This document shows positions 14,436 through 17,529 of a stretch of DNA of 64,000 nt, one piece after another. This DNA is from Methanohalophilus portucalensis (lineage in GTDB: Archaea; Halobacteriota; Methanosarcinia; Methanosarcinales; Methanosarcinaceae). The notes below the pieces were generated by a model, which worked only from the letters and a program-made list of their open reading frames with translations, did not search any database and had not been told where the DNA came from. The stretch is taken from contig NZ_CP017881.1 in NCBI RefSeq assembly GCF_002761295.1, positions 1,735,750-1,799,749 on the forward strand. Direction: 5' to 3'. The position numbers and the translations under genes are program-made. Each line of letters starts with the position of its first letter. Positions within the stretch are counted from its first letter, which is position 1.

Positions 14436-14657
14436 ATGACAAAAATAGAAGTAGATACAAGGGGAGAGACCTGCCCGGTCCCGCTAGTTGAATGCAGGAA
14501 GGCACTGAGAAAAGCTACACCGGGAGATGAGGTAATAGTTACCGGCACACATCCAGCTTCAAAGAAGGAGATACCAATGGCCTGCGAATCCATGGGGCTT
14601 GAAATTATCGGTATCGATGAAGAAGCTGATGAGTGGAAAATCAGAATTAAGCGTTAA
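14436..14657 (+). CDS. TusA/SirA-family sulfur carrier
   Basis: A 73-residue protein with the TusA signature GETCPVPLVECRKAL; the sulfur-binding cysteine is Cys13 in the CPxP motif. TusA-like proteins accept persulfide sulfur and pass it to partners. A GGGGAAAAG ribosome binding site precedes the ATG, and a TATA box CTTATATACC lies near 14354-14363, so this is likely the first gene of an operon continuing with the DsrE-like, IscS-like, IscU and flavoprotein genes. The order suggests a sulfur relay for Fe-S cluster or thiocofactor assembly. Confidence 0.9.
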   Translation: MTKIEVDTRGETCPVPLVECRKALRKATPGDEVIVTGTHPASKKEIPMACESMGLEIIGIDEEADEWKIRIKR

Positions 14658-14671
14658 AAGGGTTGGTTTCT

Positions 14672-15091
14672 GTGAGCAATAAAACAGTCATAATAGTCCA
14701 TAGCGGGGACATGGACAAACTGTACAGTGCACTCATTATTGCAAATGGTTCACTGTCGATGGGAATGGAAGCTTCCCTATATTTTACTTTTTGGGGCCTT
14801 GAGCGGTTGAAAAAAGGAGGACTTGAAAAGGGTCCCTTATCCAAAATGAATTTCCTGGGGCTTGGCAAATGGATGGTCAAAAGCAGGATGAAAAAGGTCA
14901 ATGTAGCTCCCCTTGAAAAAATGATGACCGATTTCAAGGAACTTGGGGGTAAAATAATTGCCTGTGAAATGACCATGGAAATTATGGGAATCAAGCAAGA
15001 ACAGCTACGTACCGAATGGATTGATGAATATGGTGCTGTGGGTACCTATGTCCATGAAGCAAAAGATGCAGAGATTACATTGTTTATCTGA
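14672..15091 (+). CDS. DsrE/F-like protein (peroxiredoxin-like sulfur relay family)
   Basis: About 139 residues starting at GTG 14672, with AAAAGGGTTGG as ribosome binding site (TTG at 14663 is an alternative). The N-terminus (TVIIVHSGDMDKLYSALIIANGSLSMGMEASLYFTFWG, in pieces) fits the DsrE/DsrF/DrsH fold, which commonly partners TusA. One cysteine is visible in the second half (KIIACEMTMEIMG), at the position where sulfur-relay members carry the active Cys. It sits 14 bases after TusA and 8 before the IscS-like gene. Direct sulfur transfer between the two is inferred. Confidence 0.8.
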   Translation: MSNKTVIIVHSGDMDKLYSALIIANGSLSMGMEASLYFTFWGLERLKKGGLEKGPLSKMNFLGLGKWMVKSRMKKVNVAPLEKMMTDFKELGGKIIACEMTMEIMGIKQEQLRTEWIDEYGAVGTYVHEAKDAEITLFI

Positions 15092-15099
15092 GGAATTTT

Positions 15100-16266
15100 A
15101 TGGAAGACAAAACTGCTTATTTTGATAATTCCGCAAGCACAAGGCTGGATGAAAGAGTGTTTGAGGCAATGAAGCCGTATTATTTTGATACTTATGCAGT
15201 GGCAACATCAGAGTTTGCTTATTCGATGGGTATCGATGCAAAGGAGGCACTTGAAGAAGCCAGGTCCACAATTGCAGATTCATTAAATGCTTCGCCTGGA
15301 GAAATTGTTTTCACATCCGGAAGCACCGAATCAAGCAACATGGCAATAAAGGGAGTAACATCTGCACTCAAAAAGAAAGGGAAACACCTTATTGTCTCAA
15401 AAATCGAGGATTTCCCCGTCCTGAATACCGCAAAAGCACTGGAAAAACAGGGTTTTGAAATCGATTTCATTGAAGTGGATGGCAGTGGTCGGCTAAATAC
15501 AGAACAACTTGCAGAGACGATCACAGATGAAACTGTTCTCGTCTCGATACAGCATGCCAATCAGGAAATAGGTACGCTGCAGGATCTGGAAAGCATTTCA
15601 AGCATATGCAAGGAGAAAGGAGTACTTCTGCATACAGATGCCACCCATAGTTTCACACGCGTTCCAATAGATGTACAAAAAATTCCTGTGGACCTGATAA
15701 CGATTGCATCGCATACCATACATGGCCCCCGGGGTATTGGAAGTCTCTACATACGCAAAGACACACCTATCAACAAATGGATGGACGGCGGATTCCAGGA
15801 ATTCAATCTCAGGGCAGGTCTTGAAAACATACCCGCATCTGTAGGGTTTGCAAAGGCAGTCGAACTTGTGACAGAAGAGGAAAACAGACAGATCAAAGCG
15901 CTGAGAGACCATCTTATAGAGAGAATATCCAGTGAAATCACGGATGTAATATTAAATGGAAGTAAGGAACACAGGAGTCCACATAATGCCAACATAACGT
16001 TCCATTATGTAGAAGGTGAATCACTTACCCTCCATCTAGATATGCGTGGATTTGCGGTCAGCACGGGTTCTGCGTGTTTTAGCCGCTCCCTTGAAGCAAG
16101 TCACGTTATACTGGGCATAGGTGGAGACCATGAAAGGGCCCATGGATCATTGCGCTTTACCTTCAGTCGTTACAATACCCTTGAGGAAACCGATGCCATT
16201 GTGGATGCGATTAAGGAAATAGTTGCTCAATTAAGAGAGATTAGTCCATTGTACGAGAAAAAGTGA
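15100..16266 (+). CDS. IscS/NifS-like protein lacking the PLP-binding lysine
   Basis: A 388-residue aligned relative of cysteine desulfurase IscS, with conserved SGSTESSN, QHANQEIGTLQ, Asp180 and the mobile-loop Cys326 in STGSACFS. The lysine that forms the PLP Schiff base (Lys206 in E. coli IscS) is replaced by Thr206 in ASHTIHGPRGIG, and the pyridoxal-contacting Gln183 is His183. So the protein should not work as a normal PLP desulfurase. It may be a structural partner or sulfur acceptor for IscU; I recall a similar lysine loss in Archaeoglobus fulgidus IscS. The start has TGAGGAAT ahead of the ATG. It is co-transcribed with the TusA and DsrE-like genes and IscU. Confidence 0.85.
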   Translation: MEDKTAYFDNSASTRLDERVFEAMKPYYFDTYAVATSEFAYSMGIDAKEALEEARSTIADSLNASPGEIVFTSGSTESSNMAIKGVTSALKKKGKHLIVSKIEDFPVLNTAKALEKQGFEIDFIEVDGSGRLNTEQLAETITDETVLVSIQHANQEIGTLQDLESISSICKEKGVLLHTDATHSFTRVPIDVQKIPVDLITIASHTIHGPRGIGSLYIRKDTPINKWMDGGFQEFNLRAGLENIPASVGFAKAVELVTEEENRQIKALRDHLIERISSEITDVILNGSKEHRSPHNANITFHYVEGESLTLHLDMRGFAVSTGSACFSRSLEASHVILGIGGDHERAHGSLRFTFSRYNTLEETDAIVDAIKEIVAQLREISPLYEKK

Positions 16267-16276
16267 GGTGTTTAAT

Positions 16277-16912
16277 GTGAAATTCCCTTACAGTGAAAAA
16301 GTTCTTGATCACTTTAAAAACCCCCGAAATGTGGGTAAAATAGAAAATCCGGATGGCAAGGGGCTGGAAGGAAGTCCGGCATGTGGTGACATGGTGGCAG
16401 TATACCTGAATGTCAATCCCGAAACCCTGGTGATAGAGGATATAAGATTTGAATCCTATGGATGTGCATCCAATATCGCTACAGCTTCCATAATTACCGA
16501 AATGGCCAAGGGAAAGACCCTGGATGAGGCTAAAAATATCTCATGGAAGCAGGCCACCGAAGAACTAGGAGGGCTGCCCACCGTAAAAGCACACTGTTCA
16601 GTACTGGCTGTGGAAGGTTTGAGGGCAGCAATACGGGATTATGAAGAAAAGCATGGCCTTGTGAGCGAGAAAGAAACTACTACTGAAGAAGTCGTCAGAA
16701 GACGCCTGAAACATGTCATGAATCCCATGGCAGGGTTGGATATCATCAGGACAGAACTTGTGACAAAGATAGAGATCAATGAGGGTTCTGTGAGAATACT
16801 TATAGACCTTCCTTCAGATCACCAGTTCGCATCGGCTATTAAAGAGGATATTCTGGAGAAAGTAAAGTCACTCTGGGATATCGAAGAAGTGAATGTCGTT
16901 TTCACAGAATAA
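16277..16912 (+). CDS. iscU: IscU scaffold fused to an additional C-terminal domain
   Basis: About 211 residues. The first 125 are a complete IscU with cluster ligands Cys36 and Asp38 (GSPACGDM), Cys63 (YGCASN) and His106-Cys107 (KAHCSVL). Residues about 138-211 add a second domain (RRRLKHVMNPMAGLD, then a beta-alpha-beta segment ending EEVNVVFTE) that resembles the MIP18/DUF59 (SufT-type) Fe-S assembly fold. Ordinary IscU is about 130 residues. The GTG at 16277 is chosen because GAGGTG lies 6 bases upstream. It follows the IscS-like gene by 10 bases. The fusion would join scaffold and targeting functions; the second-domain assignment is by pattern. Confidence 0.85.
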   Translation: MKFPYSEKVLDHFKNPRNVGKIENPDGKGLEGSPACGDMVAVYLNVNPETLVIEDIRFESYGCASNIATASIITEMAKGKTLDEAKNISWKQATEELGGLPTVKAHCSVLAVEGLRAAIRDYEEKHGLVSEKETTTEEVVRRRLKHVMNPMAGLDIIRTELVTKIEINEGSVRILIDLPSDHQFASAIKEDILEKVKSLWDIEEVNVVFTE

Positions 16913-16935: not shown

Positions 16936-17529
16936 ATTACAATCGATATCCTGGGAATCTGTGCAAGCCCCAGAAAGGCAGGCAATACTGACGTATTGCT
17001 GGATGAGGTAATGGAAGGAGCAAAAAGTAACGGTGCTACAGCCGAGATAGCACATCTGCGGGATTACAGTATCGAGTCCTGTGTGGGATGCGAAAGATGT
17101 CGCCAGGATAAGACCTGTACCCGCTTCCATGACGGGATGAATTTACTTTATCCGAAGATCGAAGAAGCAAAGGGTCTGGTTCTTGGCTCCCCTACCTACA
17201 ATTACAACGTTACCTCCCTTATGAAAACCTTCATAGACCGCCTCTATCCTTACTACAATTTCACAGATGACAGGCCACGTGAGTATTCCAGCCGGCTGGC
17301 AGGACAGGGAAGACGTGCCTGCGTTTTCACCATTGGAGAGCAACCTATCATAGAAGATATCGGGTTCAGCCTGGAAGCCATGAGTTATCCCCTGGAAGCC
17401 CTGGGATACACAGTGGATAAGGCGATGCCTGTGCTTAACCAGTTTGACAGAGGAATTATCAAAAAGGATGAAGCAGCGCTTAAAAATGCTTTCGAAATGG
17501 GCGAGGAACTTGCAGGGAAATTAAAGTGA
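16936..17529 (+). CDS. Isf-type iron-sulfur flavoprotein, apparent non-AUG start
   Basis: About 197 residues of the NADPH-dependent FMN reductase fold. The N-terminus has the FMN-binding ICASPRKAGNTD, followed by the compact cluster motif C-x2-C-x2-C-x5-C (Cys49, 52, 55, 61 in SCVGCERCRQDKTC), characteristic of Isf of Methanosarcina. It also has the flavin motif LGSPTYNYNVTSLMKTF. Isf proteins carry a 4Fe-4S cluster and FMN and transfer electrons, possibly in oxidative stress. The ILGICASPR strand begins before any ATG, GTG or TTG. A perfect GGAGG lies 8 bases before an in-frame ATT at 16936, so I place the start there; the next canonical ATG (17011) would delete the FMN site. Confidence 0.8.
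   Translation: MTIDILGICASPRKAGNTDVLLDEVMEGAKSNGATAEIAHLRDYSIESCVGCERCRQDKTCTRFHDGMNLLYPKIEEAKGLVLGSPTYNYNVTSLMKTFIDRLYPYYNFTDDRPREYSSRLAGQGRRACVFTIGEQPIIEDIGFSLEAMSYPLEALGYTVDKAMPVLNQFDRGIIKKDEAALKNAFEMGEELAGKLK

Follow-up and report, generated by a model that had tools for sequence, protein, structure and literature searches.

Described systems closest to the locus

The minimal ISC system (MIS) consists of a cysteine desulfurase and a scaffold. MIS and SMS (SufBC) are minimal machineries of anaerobic archaea (PMC12192291), and the genome studied here resembles both, with SMS represented by a SufB-type protein; unlike MIS, its module is predicted to lack the desulfurase function and includes two additional sulfur carriers. 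The IscS of Archaeoglobus fulgidus (structures 4eb5, 4eb7 and 4hvk; 4r5f is its D199K variant) is reported to show no desulfurase activity, its lysine being replaced by Asp, and its cysteine ligates the cluster on IscU (PMC7585200). The absence of the PLP lysine was also noted for M. acetivorans IscS1 (MA0808, with its scaffold IscU1, MA0807), which was suggested to have a role like that of A. fulgidus IscS and went into inclusion bodies if expressed alone; its locus was reported to have four neighbours of unknown function, and TusA and DsrE were unmentioned (PMC7585200).

The window analysed here is a 64,000-nucleotide stretch of the Methanohalophilus portucalensis genome, in which positions 15100-16266 (+ strand) encode a 388-aa IscS-like protein without the PLP lysine (IscS1). 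Residue numbers were taken from an alignment to E. coli IscS (MG1655 record), and homologs were classed as K+ (lysine-bearing), T-type (Thr206, as in the window) or D-type (Asp206, the A. fulgidus type). IscS1 shares with its M. acetivorans namesake the missing PLP lysine, the loop STGSACFS and a 24-kDa IscU partner, and by sequence the two are very probably orthologous; however, M. acetivorans has two further lysine-bearing IscS proteins and the present genome has none. It also shares with A. fulgidus IscS the replaced PLP lysine, the retained loop cysteine and the adjacent IscU, and in A. fulgidus DsrE likewise lies upstream of both IscS copies, with TusA too at one of them. A. fulgidus IscS is different in having Asp206, Ala183, Asn205 and Leu354 while keeping His104 and Asn155, and it belongs to the separate D-type clade, whose signature is Asp206, Ala183 and Asn205, usually without Arg354; the window protein has Thr206, His183, His205 and Arg354 at these positions. 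With E. coli IscS it has in common the fold, the loop cysteine (Cys328 in E. coli), Asp180, His205, Arg354 and the IscU-docking residues examined, whereas Lys206, His104, Asn155, Gln183 and Thr243 are all substituted; moreover, no tusA lies beside iscS in the E. coli isc stretch examined.

Operon and genome setting

IscS1 is encoded within a set of four genes on the same strand. A TusA-family persulfide carrier of 73 aa (14436-14657, + strand; PF01206, E=4.2e-22), with Cys13 of its CPVP motif at 14472-14474, is followed by a DsrE2-like carrier of the DsrE/DsrF/DsrH family (14663-15091, + strand, 142 aa; PF13686, E=2.6e-34; PF02635, E=6.9e-5), whose conserved Cys101 lies at 14963-14965. Downstream of IscS1, an IscU scaffold fused to an FeS_assembly_P (DUF59) domain (IscU1; 16268-16912, + strand; PF01592, E=2.3e-43; PF01883, E=5.5e-13) retains the equivalents of Cys37, Asp39, Cys63, His105 and Cys106. 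These positions bear out the sequence-only reading of the locus, which had placed the gene between DsrE-like/TusA genes and IscU. All 49 IscU partners of T-type IscS are at least 200 aa in length, as against ~120-140 aa for most partners of lysine-bearing IscS. Directly 3' of IscU (window 16996-17529), an FMN_red flavoprotein with the motif CVGCERC is encoded, which is a possible electron donor; its gene was seen downstream of IscU within this genus only.

The source genome is a single contig of 2.08 Mb (99.99% complete) and encodes a single IscS (IscS1), a single NifU_N/IscU protein, a single TusA and one SUFBD_core (SufB-type) protein. Since only one IscS and one IscU are present, the lysine-less module is the sole ISC system of the organism. 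The genome also contains one SufS-type protein with both Lys and Cys retained, encoded by a gene unlinked to the iscS1 operon. Within the genus, this genome and three others (G109, G112 and G113) show lysine-less IscS only, and three other species (G107, G108 and G110) carry a second, lysine-bearing copy (L115-L117).

Fold and active site of IscS1

The product of 15100-16266 was assigned to Aminotran_5, NifS/IscS-like (PF00266, E=6e-73), and thus has the class-V aminotransferase fold type I of class I cysteine desulfurases. NifS and IscS models are its best-scoring profiles, with scores under the curated NCBIfam cut-offs (429 bits vs 531 for NifS and 380 vs 643 for IscS), and its closest sequence match in the PDB is A. 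fulgidus IscS. An AlphaFold2 model (pLDDT 85.9, pTM 0.87; low-certainty regions at residues 35-41, 229-234 and the cysteine loop 326-330) reached TMq ~0.90-0.94 to the A. fulgidus, E. coli and human desulfurase structures (IscS/NFS1), and IscS1 is predicted from this model to keep the ordinary IscS fold.

Two of the features of a class I desulfurase in the active site are missing, namely the PLP lysine and the His104/Asn155/Gln183 set, and the third, the loop cysteine, is present. Thr206 (15715-15717, + strand) replaces the lysine that forms the Schiff base with PLP; this position is Thr in 49/49 T-type, Asp in 96/99 D-type and Lys in 53/53 K+ proteins. Asp104 (15409-15411, + strand), Gln155 (15562-15564, + strand) and His183 (15646-15648, + strand) stand in place of E. 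coli His104, Asn155 and Gln183, each being identical in 49/49 T-type proteins, and the E. coli residue is found at each of the three positions in 50/53 K+ proteins. Thr243 of E. coli is Leu in IscS1, and Leu, Val or Ile across the T-type proteins. Positions 104, 155 and 243 are regarded as PLP contacts. Asp180 (15637-15639, + strand) is retained in 49/49 T-type proteins, and the mobile-loop persulfide cysteine Cys326 (16075-16077, + strand; E. coli Cys328), located in TGSACFSRSLEASH, occurs in 49/49 T-type, 99/99 D-type and 53/53 K+ proteins. The alignment to E. coli IscS therefore agrees with what had been read from the letters, i.e., Lys206 to Thr and Gln183 to His with Asp180 and Cys326 kept, and adds the changes H104D, N155Q and T243L.

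The loss of catalytic residues is complete and fixed, which supports the view, so far as residues can indicate activity, that cysteine desulfurase chemistry has been lost in IscS1. Asp180, His205, Thr76, the Cys loop and Arg354 are retained in T-type IscS, and could be taken to indicate a desulfurase still dependent on PLP, bound through another lysine or non-covalently. This is extremely improbable, considering that four PLP-contact residues are gone together, that Thr243 has become Leu, Val or Ile, and that A. fulgidus IscS, which has lost this lysine too, is reported to be inactive as a result.

Conservation and selection in the T-type group

A class-wide search of 238 genomes recovered an orthologue group of ~65-97% identity, nearly all from the family of the window's own host, and paralogues of no more than 50% identity, so that a sharp identity gap separates the two. 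Alignment with archaeal IscS proteins that lack the lysine was the check proposed along with the initial reading. Within the T-type (Methanosarcinaceae-type) group, all 49 intact orthologues share D104, Q155, H183, T206 and the loop Cys, and K206 and the loop Cys are both present in 53/53 lysine-bearing relatives. Comparisons of iscS1 within the genus gave dN of 0.012-0.019 and dS of 0.19-0.31 (dN/dS ~0.05-0.09), and constraint is weaker on the lysine-bearing paralogue found in this genus. The gene is under strong purifying selection despite the missing catalytic lysine, and the identical substitutions in 49 orthologues together with the low dN/dS rule out a pseudogene or a sequencing error.

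The invariance of the pocket could alternatively mean that the remodelled T-type active site (D104, D180, H183, H205, Q155 and T206) binds another ligand, perhaps a metal ion or a sulfur species, and performs new chemistry. The four switched residues never vary among the 49 proteins, which would be expected by chance with a probability of ~0.02 given that 39% of all columns in the clade are invariant, and the nine active-site positions examined show no variation either (p = 1.7e-4). However, general conservation of the protein could explain this pattern, and with so many unvarying columns the conservation of the pocket is in itself poor evidence that its chemistry is new. Such chemistry would also be confined to the T-type, since the D-type pocket differs (Ala183, Asn205 and Asp206), and we consider it very improbable.

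Three individual T-type loci are of separate interest. One genome (locus L061; G151:C17) has a broken IscS1 with an in-frame stop, and TusA and DsrE remain upstream of it. A full T-type operon with TusA and DsrE2 was found in another family of the same class (locus L060; G195, family f7), possibly through horizontal transfer of the whole module. A third locus (L048; G150) encodes a T-type IscS of 74% identity, also with TusA and DsrE2 upstream.

Association with TusA and DsrE

The carrier genes follow the lysine-less state of IscS almost perfectly. In a locus set from which identical proteins had been removed, and for which at least 700 bp of upstream DNA and location on the same strand were required, TusA and/or DsrE lay directly upstream of 132/144 lysine-less IscS genes (T-type 43/49, D-type 89/95) vs 0/53 lysine-bearing ones, the comparison being limited by a control sample that is mostly archaeal. 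The corresponding Fisher p of 1e-36 is inflated and overstates the association, because the loci are related by descent. A paired control within 23 genomes, in which the carriers were found at 21/23 lysine-less loci vs 0/24 K+ loci, pointed the same way, and the overall and within-genome counts together rule out chance synteny. As judged from the trees of IscS, the association may reflect one or two ancient events only (AU p = 0.43). The TusA profile also detects E. coli TusA and is therefore not fitted to these operons alone. The six T-type loci without upstream carriers all belong to one genus (g7), and an adjacent TusA-DsrE2 pair was found elsewhere in the genome in 8/8 genomes of this genus tested. 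No description of a TusA-DsrE-IscS-IscU operon was found in a search of the open-access literature; the loss of the lysine itself was already known, and its breadth and the TusA/DsrE context appear to be the new part.

In lysine-less operons with complete genes, the cysteines of all four proteins are conserved almost without exception. The CPxP Cys of TusA is found in 43/43 T-type and 87/88 D-type operons (the exception is a gap), DsrE has only one conserved Cys across 96 operon proteins (95 Cys and 1 gap), the loop Cys is invariant in 148/148 lysine-less IscS proteins, and the ligands Cys37, Asp39, Cys63, His105 and Cys106 are retained in 49/49 T-type IscU proteins. The IscU-docking positions examined in IscS1 (E309, E311, S312, R381 and P385) are retained as well.

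These observations bear on the possibility that IscS1 docks IscU and contributes Cys326 as a ligand of the nascent cluster, with inorganic sulfide as the sulfur source and TusA and DsrE serving another pathway or a regulatory function. This model has been published for A. fulgidus IscS, the closest solved relative of IscS1, and M. acetivorans IscS1 was suggested to act alike (PMC7585200). However, it leaves unexplained why TusA and/or DsrE stands beside nearly all lysine-less and no lysine-bearing IscS genes tested, and why the carrier cysteines are so tightly conserved; we regard it as rather unlikely.

Proposed sulfur relay

The interpretation that we favour, and hold to be reasonably probable, is that IscS1 is a non-desulfurase persulfide relay and a docking platform for IscU, fed by TusA/DsrE instead of by cysteine. 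TusA and the DsrE2-like protein would be loaded with sulfane sulfur, which the TusA cysteine would hand to the loop Cys326 of IscS1 for transfer to the cysteines of IscU1, where iron and electrons would complete an Fe-S cluster; no PLP chemistry on cysteine would be involved, and the DUF59-type domain of IscU1 may aid the handing-on of the cluster. The binding of TusA to IscS1, the direction in which sulfur moves, the chemistry and the cluster formed are inferred. The reading made from the sequence alone had likewise proposed that desulfurase chemistry was lost, that the Fe-S role was kept and that sulfur came from TusA/DsrE; the gene context and the invariant cysteines now lend this partial support.

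Residues at the presumptive TusA-IscS interface are consistent with such a relay. In E. coli, TusA docks on IscS via W45, E49 and D52, which pair with R27 and R31 of TusA (PMC2854127). The T-type proteins have a hydrophobic residue at 45, E49 and mostly E52 in IscS, with R27 and R/K31 in TusA. In the D-type, TusA position 31 is acidic in 80/88 proteins, IscS position 49 is mostly basic or neutral and IscS position 52 is acidic, so that the charges appear reversed at one pair in a pattern compatible with docking. This is suggestive only, and the interface evidence is weak because it comes mainly from two clades and IscS position 49 is variable within the D-type.

Because sulfur in E. coli runs from IscS to TusA, the reverse direction is an assumption here. 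The genome's SufS-type protein, with its Lys and Cys, could instead charge IscS1, from which sulfur would flow out both to IscU and to TusA/DsrE, the latter serving tRNA thiolation or other purposes; E. coli TusA indeed takes IscS sulfur onward for tRNA thiolation (PMC2854127). Such an outflow is improbable, as the SufS-type gene is unlinked to the iscS1 operon. We also know of no precedent for the transfer of sulfur from one desulfurase to another. Within the carrier-fed relay, cysteine may still be the ultimate source of sulfur, because the genome encodes both the SufS-type desulfurase and the SufB-type protein.

Distribution of lysine-less IscS and origin of the lysine loss

D-type proteins were recovered by searching the phylum with A. 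fulgidus IscS as query and by scanning the genome collection. Their archaeal hosts include Archaeoglobi, Methanophagales, Methanoperedens, Bathyarchaeota, Hadarchaeota and Asgard lineages; the bacterial hosts are few (Deltaproteobacteria, WOR-3 and one actinobacterial MAG), and most of these assignments are MAG-based. It had been suggested that a lysine-less IscS fits methanogens, which use sulfide. This proved too narrow, because lysine-less IscS also occurs in Archaeoglobi, Methanoperedens, Bathyarchaeota, Hadarchaeota, Asgard lineages, Deltaproteobacteria and WOR-3, and normal IscS is also retained by many methanogens.

The T-type and D-type clades are each well supported in the IscS tree (100/100 and 100/99). 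The larger of two trees splits T and D, and a joint lysine-less T+D group appeared in 6% of bootstrap trees; the AU test did not reject a single lysine-less T+D clade (p = 0.43). Both the trees and the AU test are compatible with either one or two losses of the lysine. More tentatively, and possibly rather than probably, TusA/DsrE-IscS(no Lys)-IscU could constitute a distinct and widespread carrier-fed pathway. Normal IscS would have given rise to it on at least two occasions (T and D), with coupling to TusA/DsrE on each, and the unit would have spread among archaeal phyla and into some bacteria.

Hitherto two isolated cases, A. fulgidus IscS and M. acetivorans IscS1 now appear as members of a kind of IscS that is common among anaerobic archaea and some bacteria. 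The position of lysine-less IscS beside sulfur-carrier genes suggests Fe-S assembly without sulfur taken directly from cysteine, and the near-perfect gene association points to TusA and DsrE as candidate sulfur donors, which makes the question testable. Annotation as cysteine desulfurases should be avoided for such genes when metabolism is modelled in methanogens and other anaerobes.

Some variant loci were encountered in the same survey. In 19 D-type operons, IscU is ~440 aa in length, and a Pyr_redox_2 domain is present in the one scanned (L217). In this and similar loci of Methanoperedens and related families (such as L109 and L119), IscU is fused to a thioredoxin-reductase-like pyridine-nucleotide-disulfide oxidoreductase, confirmed by Pfam in L217; an oxidoreductase fused to D-type IscU would suit persulfide reduction on the scaffold. 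Three other loci (L108, L195 and L231) have a shorter C-terminal extension of IscU (~257-276 aa in total), which in L195 is a weak reductase match. Two Hadarchaeota genomes also encode IscS paralogues (L274 and L275) that keep the lysine within an odd active site of Asn104, Asp155, Asn180 and Ala183.
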